64,000 nucleotides of DNA, taken from assembly GCA_019055375.1 (NCBI GenBank), contig JAHQIW010004752.1:372001-436000 (forward strand), written 5' to 3'. Positions 9,001 through 63,840 of the stretch are shown in pieces. This stretch comes from Parelaphostrongylus tenuis (taxonomy: Eukaryota > Nematoda > Chromadorea > Rhabditida > Metastrongylidae). Position 1 is the first letter of the stretch. Each line of letters starts with the position of its first letter. A program made the position numbers and the translations under genes. A model generated the notes under the pieces. That model had not been told where the DNA came from, did not search any database, and was given only the letters and a program-made list of their open reading frames with translations.

Positions 9001-12000
9001 GAGTTTTTCTCTACACGTTCATATGCTTGAAAATCGATGGATTATCGCATCAGCCCACTTTACTGCCTCACCTTGGGGCCCGTCAATTGGCCCAAGACCA
9101 GTTGCTCGCGTATGTGAATTCAAATTATTTTCCTTGCTGCACTGCAGAGAAACAGTCTTTTCAAAAATTAAGCTCAGCGTTGGAATCAGCAAGCATTACG
9201 CTATCTAATGATTACTAATAGTCCGAAAAAAGAGCTCTGTCCGGCGAGAAAAATCCGTGTGTGAAAGACAAGGAATTTCCTTCTGTAACAACGTCAGAAA
9301 GAGGCTTTTTGAGAACCGGTCACGTTGGTTGTAGCCAGAGATTAGCTTTCGAATGATTACTAGCACTCCTATGAAGAGTTTCTGTCCAGCGAATGAAGTC
9401 AGCCTTTCACTTGTCTCCGTTTAACAAAAAAGCTTTGGTTTGAGATACTTATCATTCTTTTCTTGAATATTTTCTTCCTAAGATTCATAAGAAATCTTTA
9501 AATTGATATTTTTAAGTGGATGCCGATATGCTCATTGTGAAATCCACCGATGGCGTTCTCAGCTTACATGATATGTACAGCGATGGCTACGGTGCCCCGA
9601 CCAGAGAAAAACAGCAGGATTTATTCACTCCAGATGTGGTACGGTATATTTAACAACGACTATCAACGGAAAGATTGTTACTGTTTTTGGCATTTTTGAT
9701 ACCCAACGTGTAGCTTGCCAGGCTCTAAACGTGGGGGCTGGGTAGTCACGAGTAGCTTGCCAGTCTCTCTCGGAGGAGCGGGAGGAGCTTATTTGTTGGA
9801 GGCGACTCCTAACCGCCTCCCATGTACTTCCCAGCCGCTTGATTGCAGGCTTTTGGCCGACTTGACTCGTAGAAATAGAGTTTTGTCAAGTCGGCACTGT
9901 AGAAGCAGGGAGCTCGTCCCCTGAATCCGCCTGCGTCTCTGGGAAGCACACGGTCGCTTTTGGTTCGCGTTTTATTCCCCTATCCACCACCTGGGGACGC
10001 GCCACGTGCCCTCGCGACTAACCGGGCGGGATCCCTCAAAGAGGGAGGTCCGTGGAAAACAATGTTCATGAGGAACGGATGGGTTTCTTATGCCCCATTC
10101 ACGCTCAACGGAACGACAATTTCCGAATGCTCCAGTTACATCTATCTAGGTCGTGAAATCAACATGATGAACGACCTAGCCCCAGAGTTGAGCAGGAGGA
10201 AACGAGCGGCTTGGGGAACGTTTAAGAGCATCGAAGATGTAGTGAAGAGGACAAAGAACATCCGACTCCGTGCCCACCTTTTCGACTCGACAATTATCCC
10301 TGCCCTAACGTATGCAGCAGAAACCTGGTCGCTACGTAAGCAGGATGAAAGATCACTTGCCGTTATCGAACGCGCAGTCGAAAGGTCGATGCTAGGAGTG
10401 TCTCGTATTTCGCAAATGAGACAAAGGATCCGAACTTCCGACCTACGTCAACGATCGAAAATCAGAGACGCCGTTCTACACGCCAGGATATCGAAAATAA
10501 GGTGGGCCGGACACGTGATGCGCTTCAACGACAACCGATGGACGAGAGCCGTTACCGACTGGATTCCTCGGGACGTCAAGCGCTCTAAAGGAAGACCACT
10601 GACCCGTTGGTCCGATTTCTTCACGAAAGCGATGGAAGAAAGATATGATGCTCAGCGAATTCCTAGAGCAAGGAGGACCCACTGGGCTACTCTTGCACGC
10701 GATAGGGAAAAATGGAAGAGTTGCTGGTACCCGCTCGAGTCACTCGACGATCAACGGGACGACAGGTGATACAGGTGATCAACGGAAAGATATGAATTTG
10801 TGATAAGTTAAGAATGATGTCCCTTTCAAAGTAACAAGGTGATTGGAAAAAATCGATTAGCCGAGAAAAGTTCATGTTAGAAAATTGGGATATATCCTAC
10901 GACCAGAAAACCGTGTTCTAGAATTTAGGAGCTATTTATTAGCGCAATGAACTTTTGCCAATATTATGGAGTTTGAACTAATAACAAGAAGTTTTTGCAG
11001 ATTGGAACCCATGCGAATGGAGTGCTGCGAGCTCAGTTTATGCGAAAGAGAAACACTGGAGACGAGTATGACAAATCGTTCAGCAAAGAATGTTGGAAAA
11101 TGATGTTCCCAGTGTCTGGAGGAAAGCATGATGAAGTTTGTTTGATCCGTGAGAAGACAAAGTTGCATTTGTTGAAAATAGCTGAAATTCATTTTGCAGA
11201 GTGGAAATATCACGATTCACACCAGCGCACCTTTGGTGTCGGAGAAGGAAGTCTGTATAAGAAGCTGCAGAGAGGAGAAAAAAGACGATCTTGGTGAGTC
11301 TATAAAAAAGCGTGCACATTGCACTCAACTCTTGATTAGTAATATTCTTACTAGTATATAATGGATATTCCAATCTATTACACTTGAATTACTTTGACTA
11401 GACTTGACAAGGATTTACAGATAGACCGGTTTGCGAGAATTCTTTCCGATATCCGCCCAAATGTTCCGGTGATGAATGCGAGTACGTGGCCTCTTGGACC
11501 TATGATAGCGCCAAAGATGATGTCCGTTTCCAGATTTCTAGTAAGAACATTGGTCGTTGGACCGGAATCGGATTCTCAAAGTAAGGTTTATATCAGTCAA
11601 GTATGGTGTATGGTTTGGGATCTAGCTATAATTCATTTATAAATAAAATAATTTTATTCAATTTCAAAGACTGTCAAGCCCTTTATGGTGCGGTTTTGAC
11701 TAAAATGTTATGATCATCTGTTTTTACCACTTGAAATTGCTAGTTGTTGATACTTCGTTTTTAAACTTCCATATATTTTCAGGGATGGTCAGATGACAAA
11801 CTCCGATATATATACTGGATGGGTGTTCGAAGGTAAAGCCTTTGTCACTGATCGTTTCGCCTATGGGAGGCAACTTCCTGCCATTGATCCGGCGGACCGT
11901 CAGAACATTTATGATATCGGAGGGAGAATTGAAGATGAAACACAGGTGTTACTTAGATAACTATGCTTGCGCCTTGAAATTATGACAGAATCGTAAATAA

Positions 12001-15000
12001 AAGGTAACAGAAAATCAATTATATGAATTCATGATTTCACTTTCGGCTGTTTATATAAGCGTCACTTGAAAACGATGATAATCTAATTATATGATTACAT
12101 GTTTTAAGCTTTTTACCAGGTCTGATGTGGCATCATACAGTGCTAGACAGGTCTGCTTCGCCTTCCCAGGCTCATCAGTAGTGCGGTGCCTTCCGGTTCA
12201 ATATCTCCCTTGCAGGGGAATATACCCCTAATTGTAGACGCCGACTAATTTGAACCACCGCATGTCGGCTGACAAAATCCCCTGACATCGCAGCCACCAC
12301 TCGAGCGGTTATGGCTAGTTGAATTGATTATGCCTTCACTTTCGACTTCCTGCAAGAGATCGGCTGAACCGGAAGGCATCGTACTACTGATGAGCCTGGA
12401 AACGTGAAACAGCTTGTCTAGTGCTGTATAAGTGCCATACTAGGCTCACAAAAACCTCGAAACATGTTATGACATTATCAGATTCTCACTGTTTGTCAGC
12501 GAGGTCTATAAAAATAGTTTAAAGTAAAGACATCAATCATTCTACTAACCATAATCACTCGACTGTGATCACTGCAATGTCGCAGGGGAATTTTGCCACT
12601 CGACATATAGTGATTCAAATAAATCGGCGTCGATTCCTTTTGGGTAAAGATTTATCGCTCCGCAAGGATTCGGCTGAACCAAAGAGCAGCATATTGCTGG
12701 GAGCCTGAAAACGTGAGACAGGTCTATCTAGTACTGTATAAATGCCATACTAGGCCTCACGAAAGGCTCCAAACATATTATCATACTATATTAATTCGAT
12801 AATGTGCTCTGTAGTTGCATGAATCTAATTAAAAGTTCTAGCTCTTGAAACTCTCGGCGTTGATCAATCTCTCAGGTATGCGCCATGCATTCATCTTCAA
12901 TGTTTAATTTCATTTGAAGTGGTTGTAAGCATATTTTGCCTCCTTTACAATGACTAGCGGTGGCCTCTCGCTGTTTTGAGCCAGTGCTGCTTATCCTCCC
13001 AGACAAGTGAATCCGAATAATGCAGTAAATGTACTAATCAATTGAATTAGTAATGGAGATATTTGAACTTCTTTTATTAGGTCTAGCAAAACTCTGATGA
13101 CTTGTCCTTTTGACATTGCCTATGTCCACTTATTTCATTTACTTATTTTTCAGAACGGTTCTTAAATTATAGCAAAAGACAACATTTACTCCTTTTCCAG
13201 ACATTTTGGTTTCGTCGACCCGTTCATTCGAAAGATCAGCTCACAGATTTCCCACTCGATCAGTGTTGGTACTTTATGTTCCCCGTTGGTGGAGGTCGTG
13301 TCTTAGCAAGAAAAAGTAGTGACTTCACGAATCCGAGAACTCCAATTGGTATGTTAAGAGGACAGCAGGATGATACTTTATAGCACAGATTGTTTCTGTA
13401 TATGAGCTTCTCACTCTTTGAGTTACTTGAGCTGGACCATTTCCACAGGTTATCACGATTTATATCAGCCACGAGTTTCGGAGAAGAAGATCTGTATCTG
13501 TGATTCTGACGGAAAACAAATTTCCACACGGTCACGCAAACGAAGACAAGCAGGAACCACTGCCGTTACATCTGCCATGAGTTCCTTTGACCCTTTTGCA
13601 CGTAAGTTGGATCTCTTGTACTTTCAAGCGACTCTCCTCGAAGCAATTTGATTTTAAGCCAATGCAATGGAATGTACGGATATGGTAGTTGGAGCTGTAA
13701 TGAATGGGCGTGCGCGAGTAAAGGACCTCTACTCACCTACTAAGGTCTGTTTAAGTTGTCATATAGATCGCAACAAGTGCGCGACTATAAAATATACCCA
13801 GTGATGTAGAGTAAAATTAAACCTAATGCGATATACTACAAGTATATGCAAAACTTTTGCGTCAGGCGGGACTCGAACCCGCATTTCACCCATCCGAGTG
13901 CGCGTGATCTATCTCTTGCATTACCGACTCCTATTTTGACACCACTTTTCTGGGCTACAGCGCAACTTTTCATAAAATAAAAGGAGACTATAAAATTATT
14001 ACACAGAACGAAATTAAGAGAGCACATGTCTGTAGCTAATCGTACTATGCGTCGCGAAGTAAAATAAAGGCAGGGCAAAAGAAATGACTTACTTTAGAGA
14101 ACCTCAAAAGTTTCCCAAAAAAGAATACACAAGGGAGAACTCTTTGGCTGGTATGAGCTTTTTTGTAAGCATTTAGTTGCCGGCGTTTTGATCAAGGACT
14201 AAAAGATACGTACGACAACGGCCAACTGGTTGCATTCGCCATCTCGTAAACCTCTTGGGATACCTGAAAAGTTACACGATGCACAACGATGAATTTATGT
14301 TTTCACTAGCGTACTTCACCTACTGACCAATTTAGCCCTTCCTTCTCTCTTATAGGTAATTGGGTAATAGCTGGTGGCCTTGTATATGTTCAATTGCTTC
14401 TTACCCAAACAATCTATCATGGTAAGTTAAAGTGAACTAAGAATGGTTGACGAGAGCTCAGTCGAGAGAAAGACCATGCCAGTAGTCGTCGCAATAGCGA
14501 AAAAGACGTGTTGCAGAACTCTAAAAGAAGCTTTTGCTTTACTAATCAAGTTAATATTATGTAGAGGCTTAATCACATGTAGCACAAATGATGCATTTTA
14601 TACAATACAATCATGAAGAATGGTGAAATGGGCGAAATGCATTGGATCCAATGCATTTCCTTCCCAGCAAACTCAATCGATAATTATTGTCTGAAGCCTG
14701 GTCTGTGAGAGCTGCTTTGTTCAGTCTATTATATCTGTTTTATTTTAGACGACCCGAGATTATAGTTTGGGCTGATTTCAGCGCTTCGTGCTAAATATCA
14801 CTTTCTCCGCATGTATACTCAAATGAAATACTCTAATTCATCTTGTGAGTCTGCATAAACTTTCATACCTTCTAACAATAAATGGATCTAAGTTGAAGCC
14901 GCATGGCACACAGTATTACTTTTACCACTTGACGTCTCGTTGATCGTCGAGTGACTTGAGCGGGCACCGGTAAACCTTCCCTTTTCCATCTCGCGTACAA

Positions 15001-18000
15001 GAACAGCCCAGTGGGACCTCCTCGTTGTAGAAATTTATTGAGCATCCTATCTTTCGTTTAGGCTCCTCATGAAGAACTCGGATCATCGGGTTGATGGTCT
15101 TCTTGCAGTGTGCTTGACGTCGCGAGGAATCCGATCGGTAACGGCTCTTGTGTTAATCGGTTGTTGTTAAAGCGCTCTACGTTTCCGGCCCACCATAGCT
15201 TCGATATTATGGCGTGCAGAATGGCACACATGCCCTTCGATTATTGACGTGGATCAGAACTTCGAATTTTTCTCTCATTTGCAAGACACGGAATACTCCT
15301 ACCGACCTTTTGACGGCGCGTTCAACTCTTATTTACAGCCAAGTTTTCAACTTCTCAGGTATTCCATCTGCCGAAAGTTATCAACAGTTGCCGAAAATTC
15401 CAGTCCACTGTTTGAGGCATATAAAATTCTTTTCTGACCAGTAATTGCCACTCGTAATTGCTATGATGAGTGGTGGTTGTTGTATAGGATGGGTGTATAA
15501 GAAGTACTAAGTTATACTCAAAGAAACTGCACAGTACTTACGAATGGTGCTAACGATTTGATTGATAGAGTGTGAAAGAATATAGCACATACTAACATAT
15601 GTACGTTTACGCCGATAAAAATAAGCGTCTTTCATAATAATATGATGCCATTGCTATTTTTCAGATCATCTCTGATCTTTTCAGTCGACTTTTCTCAAGA
15701 GCTCGCTTGAAATTTATATAACCTAGTAGCATATTCCAAGCCTTTCAGAGGTCTGGTATGACATCTCTAGTGCTTAACGTACGTTTTCGGTTTGTTTTCG
15801 CGAACTTCATCAGTAGCGAATGCTTTTCGGTTCAATCGTTCTTCTACAGCTAAGAGTAGCGGAGCCGAACAAGCTCGGATATGCTATCAGATTATGCAGT
15901 TTCAAGCGAAACCTGGAAACCGTCGATTAAAAAGGCATGCTAAGTGCGATGTCGAGTGATCTTTTTACTTGATGTGTAATCATACATGTTCGGCCCGCTA
16001 CCCTTAGTTGCAGGGGTACAGTTACTAAGCTACTGATGAGATTTGCGAGCATAAACCGAAACGTTCAGCTAGCACTAGAGATGCCATAGAATCCCCTTGA
16101 AAGGTTCAAGATATGCTATCATCTCTGATCATTGAAAAATTACCGTCTGCAATCAAAAACCAGCATTGTTCGTTACCTTTGACGTCTTAATCGACCAAGT
16201 TTAAGCTTTTTACAGTCTTTATGAAGCAAGGCGCCACCTTACGCGGCAGCCACGCAAAATTGAATACCTGCATGTTTATTTCAAGTTTTCGGTCAAATAA
16301 AGAGATATCGCTGCAAAAGAAAAAACCATTAAAGAGGAAATGCCCTGGGTTATGAAGAGATGTCTTCTAAAAGTAAGAGTTGGGAGAGAGCACACTCTAA
16401 AGAAATATTACATTGATATGAGATCGTAGTTTCCTACTGTTTAGACCACACCACGATTGGATTCAGCTTTTGGAGGAAGCGATTCTCTTACGGCAGCTGC
16501 TGCATTCAGTGAGGACGGCATTACGACAGTGGTATTTCGAAAGAAACTGAAAGGTATGCGTTCCGTCCTAGTGTGCCATCTAATCCGACTCTAAAGGTAT
16601 TCTATTTTCAGCTAGTGAAAAATGGGATCATTCCATTGAAGGACCGATGACGGTGATATGGGCCAAAGGTGTCAATCCGAGCAATTATGTACACACAACT
16701 GGCGGTGAACAATTCGTTTCGCTATTTTCTGTTCAACGAAATATTTAGTGACGTTACTAAAAAGGCTTTCAATTACCGATCTATTCAGGTTCTCCAATCC
16801 ATGCCGATCCAAATTTTTTCACCAAAAACACGTTCAAATATCATGGTCGTAATCAACGCGGGAGTTTGACCATCGACTTCCTACAAGGTTTTGCATTCTA
16901 TCGTTCAAAAACTTTTAAGGCTATAGTGGTTAACAGCATAAAAATAGTAAAGAACAACATTTTCACTAATTCCAGAGAGAATAAGGCTAGGAATTAAGAC
17001 ATCGTAGGAATGAGATCGTTTAGAACAGAGTACTACTTTATATATGCTTCTCAAACTCTGTCTTATTGGTTCACTCTGTCTTATTTTTGATGAGACGGTT
17101 TCAGAGAAAATATAAAAATGTCATTAAGCTGTAGATGACACTAAAGAACTATTCTTGGAGAAAGCGTAAAATTGCAGAGATTACAGATCTATCTCCTTGT
17201 ACAGATAGTAGCTAGTTTGATGCCGTATCTTTGCAGAACCCTTTCAATTTTTCGAGATTGAGAAGTTGGATTGAAACGTTTTCTGGGAGTATGAAAACTT
17301 TGACTTCACCTGATTGCGTGACCTATACTTATACTGATTCCTACGATTGAAATCTATCAACTATGATTTTTCGATGTTCAACATTAAACGGAGTTAATGT
17401 GAACAACTCTTTAATAGTGTTGTGATCTTCAAGATACGAAAAAGGAAAAGCTCATTCACGGCTTGAACATCGATGCGTCGACGTGCTCGGGAAGCTACGC
17501 CTTCCCAGCTAATTGTGTAGCAGAATCAGCCGAGAAAAGGTGTCAATATGTTGTTAAGTGGATCAGTGACGGAGAGGTGGCTCGTTTTAGCGTCAAGGTT
17601 GGTGACAGAGTCGTTCAGATTATTGAAATGATTGGTTGCCTAGTTGTCTATTATTTCATGAAAATCTATGCACAAGTTTGTATTACACCAAACCGATTCA
17701 GGCGGTCATAGCATAGCTGTATTTATCTCGATTAATGTCTATCACTTTTCATAAAAGCTCATTGAAATTAATCGATTTCTCAAACACGCATAATTTAACA
17801 TATGCAGTGTTTCAATGTCAGACGTTCATGTAAGCAATATAATAATTCATACATTACTGCTCGTTAAACTCACAAAATGAAAGACAAGTATAGAGCTCTC
17901 GGCGCTGATCAATCCCTGAGGAATGCGCCATGCATTCTTCTTCAATTCTTAACATTGCTTGATGTAATTGAATGCATATCTGTGTTTTTATGTCTTTAAA

Positions 18001-23929: not shown

Positions 23930-25985
23930 GTAACCTTCTCACACCTTTGTAACAAATTGCTATAATCAAACTAACCAAATGTTATCGAAGTACCAGAGCC
24001 AGTGTTTTCTACACGATTTTGGCTTTTCGTGTGCAAATTGGCATTGTATTTCGACTACCTTGTTTTTCACCTTTTTTTGGTTGAGTTTGCTCTGAAATGA
24101 TTGCTTACAGAAACTGTAGGGTGCTTAGTGTGATCTTTCTCACCGTCCACTTATTGTAAGAGTTGTTATTTCATTGAAATTTTCTTAATGCATAAATTTA
24201 TCTATAGCATCAGCAGATGTTTCATTCTTAGCTTTTACCAATTGTATTGATTAATCGTTGACATCCTTCATTCATAAAAATAGAAAATACTTTGAATGCC
24301 TGTTAAGAGGCTCTGTCAATAATGAATGAAATTATTATATTAGTATAATGTTTCTTTGACTATTCTACAACACACTCATAAGGATATTACAAAAATTTTT
24401 ATTGTGGGTAGAGTTGTTGCTTCTCTACCTTCTTTACCAACGCAATGTTTCGAGTCCAGTGTCTAGAGAGCCGTCGTTTTTTGTGAAGTGTTTTCATGGG
24501 CGCATCGAAGCGAGTGAGTTGGATTTTTACACGGTCAGAAATTCTTATATCCCTAGTTTACGATCGACTCCACTCGGTGTAACAACAAACATCCACATCG
24601 CAATAAACGACCGGCTGTGAACTATCGACCTGGATAAACGCGGCTGTAGAAAGGTGAAAGTTGCGAAACGTCAGGCGATTAAACATTCCAATACCAACCT
24701 TGTTCAAGATTAATGAACTTAGAAAGCTAATGATCCCTGTCACCTGTGTGATCTATAAGTCGTTGATTGACTCAAATTCCTACAACTAAATAACTTCTTT
24801 GTTCTTGTCTTCAACAAGAGGGCATTTAAACATTTTTGGCTGGGGATTTTTAGTGTAGGAGACAAGGAAATGCAGTCTATCTTCACGTGCGCGCGCTTAT
24901 GCACATGAAATCAGTTTGATATTTCCATATATAATCAAAGACAAGAATGCTGAGAAATATGCAAATCGTGTAACCTCAAACGGAAACTAAATCCGCGCAT
25001 CGCCCACATTCAATAGCTGTTAGCGTAAGTGAGTTTAATGCCGATATGTGCCTACCCAGAACAGATCCTTTGACGGGTGGTTGCTGACAACTGTGAGGCT
25101 AGAAAAAACCTCCAAAAAAGGTTTTGTCTGGCGGCACAGAAGAGCACACGTCGAAAACGCCTTGTTGAACGAGTACAAAGTTTGCTATATAGTCACGGTC
25201 ACTTTGTGCTGCGCATTTATAGCACTACTGCGGTGGCCATCTCTCGGTATTATAAGGTGCACACTCAAGTATCAAAAAGATTTATCGAAGGCTTGATGAT
25301 ATGGGTGAAGAAAACTTGAAGTTATCACCTTTGAAGACTGTTTATAATACACCATATCAAAAGACAAAATTCTTAGGAAAAGGCGAAGCTAGTGCCTTCA
25401 TTAGCTCATCGCTACTCTTTTGGACGACTTGCGAGCGGAGATGGAAGTTCACAACTGAAAGAATGTGAATCAACGCCGACTTTACCAGCCTTCATTATCG
25501 GCCTGAAAGATCGATAATTTATACACCAACAGGAAACAATAAAAAAGAGGATTCAAGAGAATCTTTAGAAACTTGGTGTGATTTGAAAAACATCTACGCT
25601 GCCCATTGGAACGTTGTAAATCTATAAGGCTAAGATGATCGCAGAAACTCCAAAAGAAAATAGAGGAAATTAGAGCCATATATATGTAACTCGCTCGACC
25701 TTCACGTCAACCTGTTTCCACGCAAGCTTAAATAAATTTATGTATCCTCAGCGGTTCTTTCTTTCGATACCCGACATATTACAGGGATGACGGTGTCATG
25801 CTGCACTTTGTCTGAACAGGACTGAAGTTGACCATTGAATAGACTAGCTTCTAGCTTTCTTTGAATCCCTTCCTTGGCTACAACGTTCTGACTCAGTAGA
25901 AGACTACTGAGATAATACTGGTGCACAGATGGGAAAATCTGCAAGGAATAAGCAAAAAGTTTTTCTTCAGCTCACCGTTCTAATA
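23930..25985. other. Intergenic, AT-rich
   Basis: Downstream of the large gene. I see no splice-bounded coding exon and no clear repeat except short A/T tracts. The open frames here lack splice context or plausible composition. Confidence 0.5.
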
Positions 25986-26107
25986 CTCGACTTCCCTAAG
26001 AGAACTGAGTGAAGAGCAAGAACACAACCTCAGGCGGGAATCAAACCCGCGTTTCATCCATACCGGTTATGCGTGCTACTACCACCACACCAACGAGGCA
26101 CATTTGC
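25985..26107 (-). repeat. tRNA-like inverted-repeat element, family B
   Basis: It begins CCCTAAGAGAACTGAGTGAA like the other family B copies. The tRNA-like core is at about 26,028-26,099 on the minus strand (GCGGGTTTGATTCCCGCCTG; GTGTGGTGGTAGTAGCACG). Confidence 0.6.
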
Positions 26108-26865: not shown

Positions 26866-27749
26866 TGATATAGCAAACCTCCCAAGGGAGTTTTGCTAAC
26901 TTTTCGGGTATTACATGATAATTTAGGCAACTCAGATGGTCCATGACTCTAGAGAGCAAATGCTATCGTGGAGGTTCGAGGACCTTACGCAGAAAATGGT
27001 CCGAGTGGCGACGGCGGCACCCAGCTGCCACCAACTTGAACAGTCAATTCGATCACGGGGTATCATCCGAACTGTCGTTTGACTTCATCCAGACCACCTC
27101 ATCTCAAATCGTAACTGATCCATTATTGCTCTCTCCACACAATCTCGTTGTCGTGTAACTGATTGTTATCATAAAGCTGCGCTCATACGGCTGTCAGATG
27201 AACTCAATACAACTGTGAGCGGAACATATCACTAATGTGGCGGAGCAAACTCACTTAAGCGATGCTCGGCCCGCCACCGCGGTCAAGGGATTTTGCCCAT
27301 ATCTAATTAGTGATGACCTCGCTGCTGTCACAATATACTCACCCACTGGATCCCGCCGCCGGTGCTTTTACTTCGGGGCGAATATAGCACTCCTAAACGG
27401 GCTTCGCCGCCTAGTCATATTTCGTTAATAACAACATCCATGGCATCGTCACACGACAATACATCTCATCAATTACGTTCACTTGTTCATATTATCGTCA
27501 CAAGACGGTACATCACATTCACAGACATATGTTCACATAACGATATGTCGCAATCGTATATAAGTGTTCTTGCGCTATTATTACAGTGATATATGTATAT
27601 TATAGGTTGTTTGGTTTCACCATACTGTTTGGTTGCATCCTATTGTTTGGTATAAGCCATACAAAGGATTTGAGCTCTACGCTCTTGTCCGTTGCGATAC
27701 ACAACTTGGCAGCAGATCAAAACAACAAGACCACTGAACCTTCACCACA
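26866..27749 (+). repeat. 5' long terminal repeat
   Basis: It begins near AGCAAACCTCCCAAGGGAG and ends at ACCTTCACCACA. It is the direct counterpart of 28,984-29,888 throughout (e.g. GGATCCCGCCGCCGGTGCTT, TTGTTTGGTTTCACC versus TAC). Confidence 0.8.
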
Positions 27750-27751
27750 TT

Positions 27752-27826
27752 TGGTGCATTGGCCGGGGAATCGAACCCGGGTCGCGCGCTTGGCAGGCGA
27801 GTGTTCTACTGCTGAACCACTAATGC
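27752..27826 (-). repeat. Full-length tRNA-Gly(GCC) complement at the primer-binding site
   Basis: Positions 27755-27826 on the minus strand form a near-complete tRNA-Gly: GCATTAGTGGTTCAGCAG, anticodon loop CTGCCAA, T-arm GGGTTCGATTC and 3' CCAATGCA. The acceptor stem has one mismatch, the anticodon stem one mismatch, and the T-loop side one extra C. The three bases beyond the discriminator read CCA (TGG on the + strand), which nuclear tRNA genes do not encode. That and its place 2 nt after the LTR argue for reverse-transcribed tRNA primer rather than a tRNA gene. A decayed tRNA gene remains the alternative. Confidence 0.7.
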
Positions 27827-27827
27827 A

Positions 27828-27977
27828 CTTGATGCATTGTCCGAGTTAATCGAACTCGGATCTGTCACTGACCGTGCACTACACATTTGGTGCATCGACT
27901 GACTCAATTCGAACTCGGGTTTGCCACTGAGCTTGCTCCACCACTTTTGGCGCATTGCCCACTCAAGAATCGAGGTA
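27828..27977 (-). repeat. Decayed tandem copies of the tRNA-Gly primer-binding segment
   Basis: Three further segments repeat the pattern at about 60-bp spacing: GATGCATTGTCCGAG with ATCGAACTCGG, TTTGGTGCATCGACTGAC with TTCGAACTCGGG, and TTTTGGCGCATTGCCCAC with AATCGAGG. Each starts like a primer-binding site (TGG-x-GCAT) and decays in the part matching the tRNA body. Confidence 0.6.
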
Positions 27978-28245
27978 CTTAACAAGAAAGCCTCCATTTC
28001 CTACTCATAGATCGGGTCACTCAGCAGAAAGCCCCAACTTCTCGGTGCATAGATTAGGAGACTCAGCGAGAAAACCCTCATTTCTTAGGACACAGAGCGA
28101 GGAACTAGCAAGAAAGCTCCACTTCCTGGTACATAGAGCGAAGAACTAGCAGAAAACCCTCACTTCCTGGTACATAGAGCGGGGAACTAGCAAGAAAGCC
28201 CCCACTTCCTGGTACATATCGCGGGGAACTAGCAAGAAAGCCCCC
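27978..28245 (+). repeat. Tandem array of 41-42 bp units
   Basis: At least four clear units (AACTAGCAAG at 28103, 28144, 28185, 28227) and two or three more diverged ones upstream. Each unit contains CTTCCTGGTACATAGAGCGG. The CTGGTACAT-GCGGGGAACTAG part aligns with TTGGTGCATTGGCCGGGGAA of the preceding primer-binding segment, so the array appears derived from it. Confidence 0.75.
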
Positions 28246-28983
28246 TCATACGGCACATCAGCCGATTACGTTCGCATACTAGTCACCGGAGAATCTCGCA
28301 ACCAAGGACGCAGCCTCGCCAGCCGATTGAGTGTTCGCATTGTCGCATCATTGCAACAACCAACTCTATGAGTAGCTGAACAATACAACTTCATCAAGTA
28401 GAACCAAACAACCTCAAACTTGGAAAACCGCCAAATACGCTTGAATTCCGTCATTACATCAAAGTCATCTTCCATAACACTGTATGGTAAGGGCTGAAGC
28501 AAAAATAAAGCAGGAAATAGAAGACGTCAACATCATGACGGACCAGTAAATCGTAGTGGCAGCCGAAGTACTGGAAAAGTTCACGTATCCCCAAAAACAG
28601 ACTCACAACACACGACCTTACGTTGTGGTGCACATAATCTTAATTTCGCTCAAACAAGGGTAGTCCTAGAGCTCATTACCACCCCAAGACCTGATAAATA
28701 GCCTCAGCTGGAGCTATTCATATTAAACCGCCGGAACGGTCGTGGCATAGATAGGACCACGTAACTGGGGAGCACTATACAGTTCAATCCTTTCTCATAA
28801 TTTCCTTTTGGTCGTTAGTTACACGCTTCACCTAAATATCAGTCCCAGGTCTCTACCCTTTTACAAGAAAACTCTCGTCTTCTCCTCCAGCCAACTCGTC
28901 TTCGAACATGCAAGACGGCACGATGTTCAAGCTCACAGACCCACTGATCTATTGAGCATAGGAGACAATCCTTTCGCGAGGCC

Positions 28984-29888
28984 GGAATTAAGCAAATCTC
29001 CCAAGAGAGTTTTGCTATCTTTTCGGGAACTACATGATAATTTAGGCAACTCAGATGGTCCACGACTCTAGAGAGCAAATGCTATCGTGGAGGTTCGAGG
29101 ACCTTAGGCAGAAAATGCTCCAAGTGGCGACGGCGGCACCCAGCTGCCACCAACCTCAACAGTCAATTCGATCACGGGATATCATCCGAACGGTCGTTTG
29201 ACTTCATTTAGACCACCTTACCTCAAATCTTAATTGACCCATTATTGCTCTCTCCACACAATCTCGTTATCGTCTAAATAATTGTTATCATAAAGCTGCG
29301 TTCATACGGCTGTCAGATGAACTCAATACAACTGTGAGCGGAACATATTACTTATGCGGCGGAGCAAACTCACTTAAGCTATGCTCGGCTCACCACCGCT
29401 GTTAAGGGATTTTGCCCATATCTAATCAGTAGTGACCCCACTGCTGTCACAATATACTCACCCACTGGATCCCGCCGCCGGTGCTTCTACTTCGGGGCGA
29501 ACAGAGCAACCCCAAACGTGCTCCGCCGCCTAGTCATGTTCCGTTAATAACAACATCCATGGTATCGTCACACGACGATACATCTCATCAATTGCGTTCA
29601 CTGGTTCATATTATCGTCACAATACATTACATTACATTCAAGGACATGTGTTCACATAACGATATGTCGCAGTAGTATATATATCGTTCTTATGCTATTA
29701 TTCACAATGATATATGTATATTATAGGTTGTTTGGTTTTACCACTTTGTTTGGTACCACGCCATTGTTTGGTTCCATCCTATTGTTTACTATAACCCATA
29801 TAAAGGATCTGAAATTTGCGCTCTTGTCCGTTGCGAGACACAAGTTGGCAGCAGATCAAATCAACAAGACCACTAAACCTTCAGCACA
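28984..29888 (+). repeat. 3' long terminal repeat
   Basis: Counterpart of 26,866-27,749, starting near AAGCAAATCTCCCAAGAGAG and ending ACCTTCAGCACA. It carries a small extra segment relative to the 5' copy (extra CCATTGTTTGGTTCC-type repeat near 29,760). Confidence 0.8.
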
Positions 29889-35100: not shown

Positions 35101-37795
35101 TGTCATCAAACTAGAACATTGCGGACCGCGTTGATATTTCGCCTGCTACACGACGCTGGTCGCCGTTTGGCGGGCATTCTCCAATAAGAATGAGGTAGTT
35201 TTGTAGTGCAATTCAATTTTTTATCATAACTAGAAGGAAATTTACAGTCTGTAAATGATTGAATATGGTAGTCAGTAGGGCTATGAGTAGCAGAAAAAAG
35301 CGAATACTTCCTCCAAAGCACCGCATTTTTTGAAATGAAAAAAAATTTGAGAACTCCAAATCAACCACTGCGCTCTATTTCTTCTACTGTAGATACATAC
35401 CGAATAAACTCCGTATAAATTTCTTCTAGAAGTCTTGCATTGTAGAAACACGTCTTCTGAAGAGATCATTTGAAAGTATTGTTCAAAGAATTGTGAAAAA
35501 AAAAGAGTCGGAAGTGCTCCGCTATCCCGTCGTTATAGTTTGTGTTCGAAAAGTAGGGTTTTTAGGACGATCGAGCACTCTTTTACTAAAATAACTTTTA
35601 CAAGAAAATCTCCAGTAATACTTCATCATCTCATGGCGATGGAGTGACTCTAAAATAAAAATTTCACTGTATAAGTATCCATCCGTAGTAAAGTTTAAAC
35701 AAGCAAATGCTAAGTACTCCAAATCTAATATAAACAAAGCATAATCTTCTTTCCGTTAGTAGGACGAGCTATGAAAGTTTTCCCAAAAACAAAGCTTGTA
35801 CTGAAGTCTGTATTTTGGACCACTGAATGACCACAAAATTGCAGGTAAAATAAGAAAAAATGGTCTGTGAAAATGTTAGATTATTTTTTGAGCTTAGTAA
35901 GTCAGAGCCATGCGTACGTTTCGGCGGTTCACCTGCTTGGCTAGTAGCCCACGACCCACACTGAACCCAATTTTATAGGAGAGATGGGGAAAGGTTAATC
36001 AGGCTGAGAGCGCATGATATAGTATCATCCCTATTTTGATGAAACTGATGAAATGCGTAACACCGCTGACATGTGCGCATGGCTCTGACGTACCAACCTC
36101 GAACAGGCTTTGAACATCCTTACAGACTTAATAAATGTTTGAAGCGAGGTTTAAGAACAGCCAGTAAGATAGAAAAAAAGAAATGTAATTTAACAGCTGC
36201 AAAAATGTTTCTTTTTTGAAGGATGCGGTTTTCTCGTTAAAACGTAGGAAAATTCGGAACACATGAGCGTTCTTTAACTAGAATTATTCTTACAGTAATC
36301 CCTTTTCTTTTATGACATCCCAGCATTTGATGATGAATCGCTGCCTCAAAATTCCAATTACCTAGTTAAATTCCTTACTTCAGTTGACGTGTGCATTAAT
36401 GCCAATTGCCTGGTATGCGGCGCTGGTATCAGTGCATAAAATTTCACGCATTTGGTGTGCAACGTGATACAGAACCACAGCTACAGATGTAGAATACGAC
36501 AAAAATGACCGGTCTAGCCTGGCATAGTTTGAATAAATGCTTTTGTAGACTCTTTCTTCCTAATTCATAGTCACTCATAATAAAGGATAGAGGATAATGC
36601 TCTCGGCGTTGATCAATCCCTAAGGGATGCGCCATGCATTCGTCTTCAAGTTTCAGCTTCGTTTGAGGTGACTGAAGGCATACCTGGCCTTTACAATGAC
36701 TCGCGGTGGCCTACCGATGAATCAGTTTAGTGCTGCTATCCCCCCATACAAGTCTAATGCCAATTCGTCGACTGTGGAGGAACAGCAGGTTTGGTAAACC
36801 TTGAATACGGGATCGGGCCATCGGCCAGGGCATCTCTAACCACCACACACATGCGTTAATTGAAAGAGATGATGCTACTTAATTCATGTTCGAGGCTCTA
36901 CCTATTTGTTCGCTTATGATTTCTATTTAACAGAATTTCATAGTTACTAAAGATGAAAAGATTGATTCGTCCTCAGAAGTGCAAGAAGCGATGACATTAA
37001 TATCATAAATATTCAGGAAGTAATCATGAAACAAAGTTCATACACCTTTGCGGTAGAAGTACTGAACCATTTCAGGTCGCTCTAGATGCTTCCAACAAAG
37101 AGAAGGTGATTCTGAACTTGCTGAACACCCAACGGAGGTTTTCGGCATCCGCTTCAGGAAATGTGGCAGCAGCAGATACATACGACGGGAAAAGGGCGCA
37201 GGTGCAGAAGATTGGCGATAAGGGCGGCATCGCTACCGTCGATGGCCATAAGTTCGCCTTTCACATTCATTGAGAGCATTAAAGCTAAATTACTGACTAA
37301 GTTGACTTTAGCTGTTTAGGGCACAACTCAGAGTAAAAGAGGATGTAAGTGGCCGACATGCTTTTCTGAAAGCTGATGGACGGTATGATCTTGACGCAAT
37401 AGCCGCTGGAGACTTCAAAGATCCAGCTGTACGTTTCTGTCTATTACTATTCGTAATCGCTCTTAGTTTTCTCTACCACGCTTCCATCTTGTTGAAACTG
37501 AAAGCATCCTAGTAACAAATGGCATCACATAGCGCACAATTTAATTGTGTATTTCTTTGAAACTTCACTTTTTATGAATCATTTTCTCTCAAGAAAGTAA
37601 TTATTAATTTTTACCTGTTTATGAAGTTATTTGAAAAAATGAACGTGTTAAATAGTCTAAGTTAAAGGTGATGAATTTGAACTGTAAGTCCTTCTTTGTT
37701 TCTGTAGCCAGATGATTGCGTTCAAAGATAATCAAGCATTCACTGTGGATTTTGCCGAATTTTTCGCTCATTCATTTGCAAAGAACGTTGCCTAG
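32130..37795 (+). CDS. Secreted protein, unknown family (five exons)
   Basis: Exons 32130-32301, 36384-36412, 37076-37251, 37320-37428 and 37712-37795 (TAG); 570 nt, 189 residues. The ATG directly follows CACTGCAG, as at a spliced-leader acceptor. The N-terminus is a signal peptide: basic start, hydrophobic WYIIVLFVSSVSA, cleavage likely before QQW. The 29-nt second exon gives a short Cys motif (DVCINANC). The third and fourth give LNLLNTQRRFSASASG, DKGGIATVDGHK and FLKADGRYDLDAIAAGDFKD. The end contains FAEFFAHSF. Junctions were chosen by phase; the 37,251/37,320 junction has an alternative (37,239/37,312) that also keeps frame. AATAAA occurs at 37,923. The N-terminal module resembles part of the next gene, suggesting tandem duplication. 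Confidence 0.6.
33137..33269. mobile_element. Short palindromic MITE
   Basis: Terminal inverted repeats of about 38 bp: AAATGAGATTGTTTCGAAAG with AAAACGATTATTGATG at the left, and CATCAATAACTG with CTTTCAGAACAATCTCATTT at the right. Total about 133 bp. Confidence 0.7.
34380..34525 (+). repeat. Interspersed repeat, family G
   Basis: It shares AACGTAATTCATCTT, GCTACAGCGTATTAAAAAA and TTTTCAATCTATCAAATGA with 63,175-63,290, and in part with 39,540-39,760. Confidence 0.55.
36598..36885 (-). repeat. SINE family C, near full length
   Basis: It starts with GCTCTCGGCGTTGATCAATC, followed by GGATGCGCCATGCATTC, ACAATGACTCGCGGTGGCC and CATACAAGTCTAATGCC. It ends in the complement of the tRNA-like head (CATCTCTAACCACCACACAC). 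It lies in an intron of the secreted-protein gene. Confidence 0.75.
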
Positions 37796-50715: not shown

Positions 50716-50934
50716 GAAAGAATTCTGGTGATTCTTTTATAATGACGCTCTACTCTGAAATGTTACTGTTTGTCACACTGTGTCTGCCCTTATACCACAG
50801 CGTGCCGTCCAATCGCAGCACCACAAAATCAGTATTTGTTACTACTCAGCAATTAGTAAAGAGTAGTCGAACTAGTTTCCTGAGATATTTCTATATTTTC
50901 ACTGTATTTTCGCAAAGTTACTGTGTTTCATATA

Positions 50935-51045
50935 CACCTAAGAGAACTGAGTGGTGGGCAAAAACACGGCCTCAGGCGGGAAGCGAACCCGCGCTTCATC
51001 CTATCCGGGGACTTTGCCCACCATTCAATTTTCTAACATAATCAA
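50935..51045 (-). repeat. tRNA-like element, family B (truncated)
   Basis: It contains AAGAGAACTGAGTGGTGGGC, GGCCTCAGGCGGGAAGCG and CTTCATCCTATCCGGGGAC, then jumps to TTTGCCCACCATTCAATTTT, the opposite terminal repeat. The 5' half of the tRNA-like core is deleted. Confidence 0.6.
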
Positions 51046-59909: not shown

Positions 59910-62215
59910 GGAACATTAGGCGTCTGTTGTGTGACAATGCGCTGTCGACAAATTGCGGACCGTTCGATGACCGTTTCCTTTGACGCGCGTAAAAATCGAA
60001 AATCTCTCGTTTCCTGTCGATTCTTCCAGATGGGCCTTTTCTGTTTCCTTGAGGTCATCAGTCTGTCTTGGCATTCGATTCCATAACCTCCCGAAGGTCC
60101 CTCCTTTTCCCGTGGTCTTTCGCTAACATCGAATTTCACAGATTTCGGAAATTTTCCAGGAAAAAGTGGAAAATTTCCGGTCTATTCGGTCCTGGTTTTT
60201 CATAGCAATTGGTTTTACAACTCCTCGGAGATCGCTGTAGACAGGTGCCCTTCTCCCTTTTCCTTTTCCACGTCCTGGCAAATTTCTAGAAAGGGGGAGG
60301 GGGACTTTCTGTACTGGGAAACATTGGACGTCTGTTGCTTTGTCAAATATTTGTGGATCGATGTCCGATTCTTTCATTTAATAAAGTAAATATATTGGAA
60401 ATGTCTCATTCCCTTCCTAAAAGAGCTGAAGACTCACCATTTCCGGCGGTCCCCCCCCCCTTTCCCGGGTCCAATCCATCTCTTATGGATTTGATTTCGT
60501 AACACCCAGAGGATCCCTCCGTTTCCCGTCGTCCTCTACATGGTCAGTCTTCCGCTAACATCGGGTTTCACAGGTTTTTGGAGATTTCCCGTAAAAAGGG
60601 GAAAATTTCTGGTCTATTCGGTCCCGGTTTTTCATAGCAATTGGTTTTACAACTCCTCGGAGATCGCTGTAGACAGGTGCCCTTCTCCCTTTTCCTTTTC
60701 GACGTCCTAACAAATTTCTAGAAGGGAGGAGGAGGAGGGGGGGGTGGGGGGGTTGAGGGCTTTCTGCTCTGGGAGATGGATCGATATGCGTTTCTTTTAT
60801 TTAATAAAGTAAACACATTGGAAATGTCTCATCCCCATCCTATGAGAGCTGTGACTCACCATTTTCGATGGTCCCCCCACTGATCCAATCCATCTCTTAT
60901 AGGATTTGATTTCGTAACACGCAGAGATCCCCTTATTTCACGTCGGCCCTTACGCGATCCGTCTTTCCCTAGCATCGCATTTCCTGGCTTCTTGGAACAT
61001 TCCACTGGAAAAATGGAAAATCTTCGTCTATTCTGTCTTATTTTTTTCAGAAGAAACTGATTTTACCAACCCACCGAAGATTGCTATAGACAAGGGGTCC
61101 GTGCCTTACATTGGGAAAAACATTAGGCGACCGTTGCTTTGTCAATTATTTCCGGATCGATGGTCCGTCTTCTTCTATCTAATATATATAAATACATTAT
61201 GAATGTCTTATCTCCTGCCTGTGGGACCTAAAGAGTCCTCGTTTTCGTCGATCCCCACCGATCCAATCGATCTTTCATGGAGTGTTTGATTTCGTAACAC
61301 CCAGAAAATTCCTCCATTGGCTTTCCACGATCTGTCGCCGACATTCGATTTTCATCAGTTTTCAGAAATCCTTCTGAAAAGTGGGAGAATCCTGGGCCTA
61401 TTCGGGTCCCGGTTTTTTCATAAAAATTCCTTTTACAACTCCCTGAAAGTTGCTATAGACAGGGGTCCCACTTTGGAGAAACAGTAGGCGTCCGTTGGTC
61501 TGTCAATTACTTACGGATCGATGGCCGTCTTTTTTACTCAATAAAAAGAATTGTTACTTATATAACTAAGAGAATTGAGTGGTGGGCAAAAACACGGCCT
61601 CAAGGGGAAATCGAACCCGCGTTTCATCCTATCCGGGGACGCGTGCTCTACTATTACACCACCGAGGCAAATGGGCTGATAGCTAACATAGAGATGTTAA
61701 AGAATGAGTGCTCGAGCAAATGTGCCTCGCTGGTGTTGTGGTAGAGCACGTGTCCCCGAATAGGATGAAACGCGGGTTCGATTCCCTATTGAGGTCCTGT
61801 TTTTGCCCACCCACTCAATTCTCTTAGTTATATAAGTAACATCATAACACTGCGAAAAAAAAGCAGTAGAATTACTATAATTTCGAAAAATTAAGTTATA
61901 AATAAGTTAAAAATTGTATAAAAGATGTAGTAATATAGGAAATATAAATAATGAGAATAAATAAAAATATGGTATGTAAAGGATACAAAACATACTCAGT
62001 GAATACATTGTGAATGTCCTATCTCCTTCCTGTGAGACCCGAGAACCCCTCAATTTCGATGGTCCCCACCGATCCTATCGATCTTTCGAGGGAGTAGATT
62101 TCGTAATTCCCAGAAGATCCCTCCCTCCTCGCATTGCCCGTTGCGCGGTCGTACTTTGGCCAGCGTTTGATCTCATGACTTTTTGTCGAGAATCTTCCTT
62201 TTTTCCTTGGCCTGC
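59910..62215. repeat. Satellite-like tandem array, unit roughly 380-430 bp
   Basis: Recurrent landmarks: GTAACACCCAGAGGATCCCT at 60,499, with variants at about 60,070, 60,915, 61,295 and 62,100; CATAGCAATTGGTTTTACAA at 60,205 and 60,635; TAGACAGGTGCCCTTCTCCC at 60,239 and 60,669; and TTTAATAAAGTAAA. There are four to five units with decreasing identity to the right and GC-rich purine runs of variable length. The last unit is split by the fold-back element at 61,553-61,840. Confidence 0.8.
61553..61840. mobile_element. Fold-back element carrying two opposed tRNA-like cores (family B)
   Basis: Inverted arms of about 120 bp run from GTTACTTATATAACTAAGAG inward and mirror at ATTCTCTTAGTTATATAAGT. 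Each arm has a 72-nt tRNA-like core: 61597-61668 on the minus strand and 61724-61795 on the plus strand. Both start GCCTCG and carry GTAGAGCACG, CCCCGRATAGGATGAAACG and GGGTTCGATTCC. Confidence 0.8.
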
Positions 62216-63629: not shown

Positions 63630-63840
63630 TCTAGCGGTGGTATGATGTTACACAAATGTATACCCATTGATGTAGAGTGATGTGCAAAACTTTCGCGTCA
63701 GGCGGGACTTGAACCCGCACCTCATTCTTTCCGGGAATAAGTTCTCTATCCGTTACACTACTGACGCCCATTTGCGTGTTTCTGCCAAAAAAAGACTAAA
63801 GTTTTGCACATTACTCTACATCAATGGGTATATATCTGCT
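63630..63840. mobile_element. tRNA-like inverted-repeat element, family A (best-preserved copy)
   Basis: The terminal repeats are near perfect: TATACCCATTGATGTAGAGT at 63,659 and its reverse complement ending at 63,836, continuing into TGTGCAAAACTT. A CCGCTCTAGCGGTGG palindrome precedes it. The core, about 63,697-63,769 on the minus strand, starts GCGTCAG and ends CTGACGC (7/7 acceptor pairs), with T stem GCGGG/CCCGC. Confidence 0.8.

Follow-up and report, generated by a model that had tools for sequence, protein, structure and literature searches.

Complete, CCA-ended tRNA-Gly copies at the primer-binding sites of an LTR retrotransposon family in Parelaphostrongylus tenuis

Results

A complete tRNA-Gly at the primer-binding site of the window element

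The window, a 64,000-nt stretch of the Parelaphostrongylus tenuis genome (contig JAHQIW010004752.1, positions 372,001 to 436,000), contains an LTR retrotransposon whose aligned LTR pair is 90.2% identical (K2P 0.105) and whose inter-LTR stretch of about 1.24 kb holds no frame longer than 106 aa from stop to stop (Table 1). On the plus strand, the 5' LTR ends in ...CACCACA and is followed by TT and then by TGG plus 72 nt, which ARAGORN calls as tRNA-Gly(gcc) on the minus strand; Rfam RF00005 matches 27755-27826, scoring 48.4 bits where the gathering threshold is 29. These calls, the sequence itself and a genuine LTR pair bear out the first-pass annotation, which had proposed an LTR element whose primer-binding site (PBS) extends over a whole CCA-ended tRNA-Gly beginning 2 nt past the LTR. 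It had also described a match of about 72 nt to a complete tRNA-Gly(GCC); the tRNA is complete, but it departs from the host tRNA-Gly sequence by one inserted base and 7 substitutions. Half the LTR divergence predicts about 4 substitutions; the 7 seen are more, yet of the same order, and the changes in the tRNA copy fit what appears to be an old insertion. A nuclear tRNA gene has no encoded CCA and a terminator after the tRNA, whereas in the window copy the CCA is present and the LTR end adjoins it.

TRIM elements are very short and non-coding with two short LTRs, and TRIM and LARD are both classes of non-autonomous LTR element. Like these, the window element has no coding capacity, two LTRs and a PBS; its LTRs of about 900 nt, however, are long for a TRIM, and a complete tRNA at the PBS is no part of the TRIM definition. 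We found no clear target-site repeat around the element (flanks CCTGA/CCCAA). The purine-rich stretch before the 3' LTR may be the plus-strand primer site.

Table 1. Features of the window element (positions in the window)
Feature	Position	Strand	Basis or remark
5' LTR (TATAGC...CACCACA)	26869-27749	+	881 nt; alignment with the 3' LTR; family-type start and end as in other copies
TT spacer, LTR to PBS	27750-27751	+	Sequence
Complement of complete tRNA-Gly(GCC) plus CCA	27752-27826	-	ARAGORN; Rfam tRNA, 48.4 bits; alignment with 35 other captured copies
PBS, the first 14-18 nt of the tRNA complement; the remainder is read-through	27752-27769		Window element
Older PBS (TGATGCATTG...) followed by the family leader; both displaced by the later tRNA copy	27830-27886	+	Resembles the L012 and L082 leaders directly after the LTR
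Second decayed unit: PBS, T-arm-like part and ...CACCACTTT (LTR-end-like)	27887-27946	+	Tandem period 59
Minisatellite in the leader with a 41/42-nt unit, about 6.5 copies	27971-28245	+	Tandem repeat
GAGGCCGGAA, purine-rich stretch before the 3' LTR	28978-28987	+	Same or nearly the same stretch precedes the second LTR in L035, L036 and L045
3' LTR, with no tRNA copy after it	28988-29888	+	901 nt

Beyond what the first-pass annotation had described are a second family-type PBS directly behind the window tRNA and, in other copies, further tRNAs with varied joints, some of them shared. Because a family-type PBS and leader (27830-27886) lie directly behind it, the full tRNA was placed in front of an old PBS. 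Compared with the tRNA, 27830-27886 scored 36, equalled by 0 of 2000 shuffles, and for 27887-27946, 3 of 2000 shuffles scored as high. A tRNA origin was unsupported both for the 41/42-nt array (200 of 2000 shuffles as high) and for 27947-28000 taken alone (60 of 2000). Repeats akin to this minisatellite were seen by eye in L015, L019 and L020.

The element family is of BEL/Pao type by its coding relatives

The window copy itself has no coding region, so we typed the family through its relative at L035, whose pol frame gave Pfam matches in three of four pieces, to Peptidase_A17 ('Pao retrotransposon peptidase', E 5.9e-39) and to integrase domains; the Pfam search returned no match for the first piece. 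The closest named proteins come from Ancylostoma, Angiostrongylus, Necator, Nippostrongylus and Haemonchus, all strongylid, and several are called Pao; by these neighbors the host is most likely a strongylid nematode. The relatives with coding capacity are BEL/Pao elements. LTR pairs are present in the window element, L035, L036 and L045, and a usual family copy reads LTR-TT-TGGTGCATTGGCCG followed by the family leader. Element copies recur on several contigs (C2002, C2003, C2907, C127), and those in L035, L036 and L045 end at contig borders; haplotype duplicates therefore inflate raw copy counts.

BEL/Pao target-site repeats are 5 bp long, and L043 has an exact 5-bp repeat, AACTC. Among six one-LTR copies examined in all, the L037 copy has an exact repeat directly after ACA (with a second exact match 6 nt on), those in L038 and L040 have repeats with one mismatch after ACA, that in L057 has an exact repeat that is 6 nt off, and L032 and L106 show no convincing target repeat. 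The chance of a match in 36 positions is 0.047 for an exact repeat and 0.47 for one mismatch; because one-mismatch matches are so common by chance, the repeats around these one-LTR tRNA copies are only suggestive of integration.

Long and short primer-binding sites coexist in the family

We searched the window's own assembly (481.5 Mb, 5105 contigs; one genome search scored 40 of 772 candidates) for an LTR end joined to the start of the PBS, allowing up to 3 mismatches. This pattern imposes orientation, spacing and PBS start, and these are therefore not separate evidence. It matched 92 genome sites, compared with 0 for a reversed control pattern; copies with a larger PBS change, such as L010/L042 with a base missing, lie outside the 92. 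Reading 91 of the sites (C2156, at a contig edge, was left out) and merging identical 110-nt junctions gave 80 distinct junctions, 75 of which have the TT spacer that the search pattern favors. The first-pass annotation had suggested comparing full and short sites across the family, and both were found: anchored extension against tRNA-Gly reached at most 18 nt in 52 of the 80 junctions, 19-42 nt in 8 and 43-74 nt in 20. The usual PBS for tRNA-Gly is 14 nt, with 37 of the 80 extending to exactly that length, and several of the 8 intermediate junctions are leaders resembling the T arm.

Among the 20 long junctions, 18 exceed 60 nt of tRNA; TGG is exact in 16, and the other four read TGA or TAG, within the 3 mismatches allowed. 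In 8 of the 80 distinct junctions (the window and 7 others), the match ends exactly at tRNA nucleotide 1, with U5 joined through the PBS to that nucleotide, and L008 and L011 are exactly 4 nt short at the tRNA 5' end. Chance origin of the LTR-tRNA joints was ruled out by the Rfam score, the shuffles and the reversed control (0 versus 92). One LTR string scanned against viral contigs gave 0 matches.

LTR-joined copies mostly carry a CCA that gene-like copies lack

A search with a 59-nt tRNA-Gly core, at up to 3 mismatches and requiring neither LTR nor CCA, found 59 places in the genome. We read 33 of these with their flanks (32 of the 38 at up to 2 mismatches and 1 of the 21 at 3 mismatches), finding 16 with CCA and 17 without, against a chance expectation of 1 in 64. 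Once the six extra places are counted, CCA is present in 21 of the 38 places at up to 2 mismatches: C1237, C3210, C5055, C350 and C2608 (read in L133) have CCA, and C1725 (L011) has CTA. Five of the six lie at or beside junction loci and one in L133.

Comparison with tRNA genes, also suggested by the first-pass annotation, identified 11 of the 17 copies lacking CCA as gene-like, with 7/7 acceptor pairs and a T-run. Behind the CCA, we saw an LTR-like end by eye in 15 of the 16 copies (the exception being L143), belonging to family 1, to a recurrent end (..CCTTTGCTACA) or to several others; LTR pairs are confirmed for family 1, family 2 is the recurrent end, and the other LTR-like ends were recognized by eye, position and terminal CA. 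L118 and L119 are the same sequence among the CCA copies. That gene-like copies lack CCA while LTR-joined copies mostly have it supports the earlier proposal that the TGG corresponds to the CCA of a mature tRNA copied into the element. The contrary outcome, an ordinary gene with unrelated flanks and no tRNA in other family members, did not occur.

The 5' leader of the 11 gene-like copies was seen by eye after tRNA nucleotide 1 in 0 of the 8 junctions that end there. Other tRNAs called by ARAGORN in loci of at least 5 kb (Ser, Pro, Leu) included none with CCA. Ordinary genes account for fewer than half of the near-exact tRNA-Gly copies that we examined, a point relevant to tRNA annotation.

Sequences beyond the tRNA indicate repeated capture

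What follows the tRNA differs between copies. In the window it is the old PBS, and in L031, by eye, an LTR end, TT and then the old PBS. In the L035 copy the tRNA lacks 2 nt at its 5' end and is followed at once by what, by eye, is the protease part of pol, in a piece for which Pfam gave no match, and gag is absent; the L036 copy passes from a full tRNA with one internal base missing into a gag zinc-knuckle-like stretch (translation by eye). Where the tRNA meets pol in L035, AAT is common to both: the tRNA reads ..CCAAT, and the pol sequence, as seen in L036, reads ..AAAAT. These two loci have 2174 nt in common at 99.8%, and their LTR pairs are 99.5% (L035; 969 aligned columns, with the second LTR cut at the slice end) and 99.8% (L036) identical; because the two are near-identical and have young LTR pairs, their differing joints are of recent origin and came from sources that were closely alike. 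Between L006/L035 and L007/L036, the 600-nt LTR tails are identical but the joints are different.

In other copies an LTR end lies beyond the tRNA. L070 has a full tRNA, ATTCGGTGGCG, then CCTTCACCACA, which is the LTR end, and then flank; in L077/L078, one locus type (81% over 150 nt), the tRNA runs to AAACC and is followed by TTCACCACA, again the LTR end. L038 (L009) has a tandem pair of tRNA units. In L124, the tRNA comes after an LTR whose far side (L147) is a 3'-LTR-type purine stretch, with about 690 nt between the stretches unread; the arrangement is what would be expected of a linear cDNA whose primer had also been copied.

Sequence related to ATTCGGTGGCG(C) directly follows the full-length captured tRNAs in L009/L038 (second tRNA), L002, L070 and L133. 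Its identity as a pre-tRNA leader was rejected by eye, as no gene-like copy's leader ends that way. The motif ATTCRGTGGCG is common to L002, L009 and L070. The acceptor halves of the captured tRNAs in L004 and of the second tRNA in L009 are mismatched (for example, C5 with A66 in L009), as though separate templates had supplied the PBS part and the 5' part.

In a tree of 21 LTR tails (12 tRNA-bearing and 9 short-PBS; the long branches of L004 and L011 are unreliable), tRNA-bearing and short-PBS copies are mixed, with 4 label changes, at least 3 of them required by starred branches. A short-PBS copy in L046 groups as the sister of the window copy with 100/100 support. The tRNA label is clustered in this tree (9 of 500 shuffles as low), and some copies therefore probably inherited a common capture. 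One joint is common to L137, L138 and L143, and nearly common to L121 and L125; the copies in the first three loci look inherited rather than produced by separate events. Taken together, the sequences, their CCA and the varied joints record that capture happened more than once, recently in two cases, and the recurrence probably spans more than one LTR family.

Fold-backs, likeness to U5 and position 58

In L116, the same LTR-like end lies inverted on both sides of the tRNA, with 40/40 nt identical beyond the acceptor stem, and the inverted-arm score of L109 is 44.5, compared with 4-7.5 in the other 31 copies. Both forms may have arisen by self-priming on the acceptor stem, which would need a DNA end at the first nucleotide of the tRNA: a single-stranded product ending there would anneal at its 3' end to the acceptor strand of the same molecule, and the fold-back would prime copying through TGGT into U5, leaving inverted LTR ends.

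The LTR end ACCACTGAACCTTCACCACA resembles the last part of the tRNA complement, ACCACTGAACCACCA (tested alone with the U5 end of L033, P ~0.017), and the U5 end and the tRNA complement have ACCACTGAAC and CACCA in common. Re-annealing through this likeness would explain the forms in which an LTR end follows LTR and tRNA, as well as the 4-nt loss (..CACCA) in L008 and L011. We conjecture that U5 itself descends from a captured tRNA. Leaders behind the PBS also resemble the tRNA, with P 0.002-0.03 in four of five strings and 0.12-0.13 in the fifth.

Our alignment of captured tRNAs comprises 36 sequences: 20 from junctions, 15 of the 16 from the CCA set (all but the duplicate L119) and the second tRNA of L009. 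The CCA copies, having been found at up to 3 mismatches, vary less than they otherwise would. Position 58 is changed in one of the 36, so no sign of miscopying at m1A58 was seen; either A58 was unmethylated in these primers or, equally well, it was bypassed faithfully.

Discussion

Probable copying of the whole primer

Normally, plus-strand synthesis during reverse transcription proceeds through U5 and about 18 nt into the attached primer before stopping at m1A58. Here, the tRNA primer was very probably copied in its entirety by the plus strand and the overlong end then joined elsewhere, the window element being an old, non-autonomous member of a BEL/Pao-type family. In the order of steps that we infer, tRNA-Gly(GCC) would serve as the primer, the stop at A58 would be weak or missing, and the plus strand would run through the whole mature tRNA to nucleotide 1. 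Such an overlong 3' end would be unfit for clean PBS-to-PBS transfer and would therefore be joined by other routes. It could be joined in front of the old PBS (window, L031); be carried by short matches into minus-strand pol or gag, deleting the intervening part (L035, L036); return onto the U5 end, giving LTRs that contain a tRNA (L070, L077/L078, L037); fold on its own acceptor stem and copy back over U5 (L109, L116); or remain as the right terminus of a linear copy (L124). The first-pass suggestion that the read-through is a fossil of reverse transcription gains support from its recurrence across copies with several kinds of joint, including deletions and fold-backs.

A broader proposal is possible, although we consider it less likely than not: that the tRNA-Gly primer regularly lacks the m1A58 stop in this nematode lineage, and that whole-primer capture is a standing BEL/Pao by-product feeding element evolution, with leaders and the U5 end (ACCACTGAACC..CACCA) built from old captured tRNA and captured near-exact tRNA-Gly copies outnumbering true genes.

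Alternatively, a single captured tRNA, perhaps retained for use as a second primer site or as a Pol III promoter, could have been inherited by a subfamily, with the joints produced by later deletions. Such inheritance would account for the joint common to L137, L138 and L143, for the clustering of the tRNA label in the LTR tree and for the tRNA-like T-arm traces in short-PBS leaders (at the P values given above for the five strings). We nevertheless consider it improbable as a general account, since identical LTR tails carry different joints (L006/L007), young copies match the host gene completely or almost completely, and joints close to tRNA nucleotide 1 occur in different contexts.

It is less probable still that the tRNA was copied alone, self-primed or by another reverse transcriptase, and only then joined to LTR DNA. 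Self-copying of a tRNA followed by LTR joining was proposed by Gurgo and Franchini for an HIV clone, and the 4-nt 5' loss in L008 and L011 recalls the 4 and 5 nt missing in the MMLV and HIV cases (as described in PMC12220202). That loss, however, leaves ...CACCA, which is also like the U5 end; moreover, the PBS match makes the tRNA the element's own primer, the CCA lies at the PBS with normal spacing, and nucleotide 1 is reached in 8 of the 20 long junctions.

Although targeting of tRNA genes is a known behavior of elements such as Ty1, Ty3 and Dictyostelium TRE, and ARAGORN recognizes the window tRNA as a gene, there is very little chance that these are ordinary tRNA-Gly genes beside LTRs of an element that targets them, given a CCA encoded at the PBS, 2 nt past the LTR, sequence beyond the tRNA that differs between copies, and gene-like copies without CCA; for the window tRNA, an ordinary gene was rejected by CCA, position and family pattern.

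Relation to known systems

Whole-primer copying by the plus strand, the reading that we prefer, has precedents in HIV-1. Plus-strand strong-stop DNA ends at m1A58; in vitro, a tRNA without modification is copied as far as its 5' end, and HIV-1 synthesis continues past A58 in TRMT6-mutant cells, where m1A58 is lost (as described in PMC13191261). The HIV-1 read-through on an unmodified primer likewise passes nucleotide 58 and in vitro reaches the primer 5' end, but in that account it is a viral side product seen in vitro and in cell culture, whereas the nematode copies are integrated, inherited and repeated in the genome (PMC13191261).

Single tRNA-Gly captures are described in PMC12220202. Colicelli and Goff (1986) obtained an MMLV circular DNA with tRNA-Gly between its LTRs, which resembles the nematode copies in having tRNA-Gly at an LTR end with 4 nt missing, as in L008 and L011, but differs in being one unintegrated cloned circle with a non-cognate primer and a mutated LTR (PMC12220202). 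The HIV clone has a CCA-ended tRNA-Gly at the 3' LTR and large deletions, and thus matches the nematode copies in its mature, CCA-ended tRNA-Gly beside an LTR and in its proviral deletions; unlike them, it is one clone from a cell line, with a non-cognate tRNA for which self-priming was also proposed (PMC12220202). The same source describes tRNA-mediated recombination in HIV (Konstantinova 2006). It is striking that the MMLV, HIV and nematode cases all involve tRNA-Gly.

A 1994 study by Lauermann and Boeke is reportedly related to Ty1/Ty3 plus-strand transfer. Ty1/Ty3 are likewise LTR retrotransposons with a tRNA primer, yet the outcome is the opposite: as described in PMC5371799, the change in a mutant primer was not reflected in the PBS after retrotransposition, while the nematode elements inherit the primer sequence in full.

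The open-access literature that we searched, with most subscription papers beyond its scope, held no account of a genome-wide inherited record of primer capture, and against what it did contain, namely single cases, the reaction is seen here in a form that is natural, is inherited and recurs. The stop after about 18 nt of primer, and its failure, have so far been studied with purified enzymes and HIV. In this genome, failed stops are preserved in tens of copies, opening the step to natural statistics, and the repair routes (ectopic transfer, gag deletion, U5 re-entry and fold-back) are visible. The captures also offer a concrete route for tRNA sequence into LTRs.

Other repeats and reading frames

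The window also contains dispersed tRNA-Ser(GGA)-like repeats at 25982-26070, 50924-51012, 61552-61640 and 63650-63738, with a fold-back at 61581-61811 and one pair forming a 97-nt inverted repeat. The tRNA-Ser(GGA)-like copy called by ARAGORN in the window has no CCA. These repeats are likely a tRNA-Ser-derived SINE or a tRNA pseudogene family. Another dispersed repeat, around CTCTCGGCG.TGATCAATC...ATGCGCCATGCATTC, occupies 12842-12937, 17887-17982 and 36591-36686, and part of it was also seen by eye downstream of the tRNA joint in L008. A 235-aa frame at 10062-10769, without a Pfam match, presumably resembles the C-terminal part of a nematode RTE-type non-LTR retrotransposon. By eye, the translation of the first 2 kb of L031, in LTR orientation and adjoining the LTR, is GIY-YIG (Penelope-type)-like.
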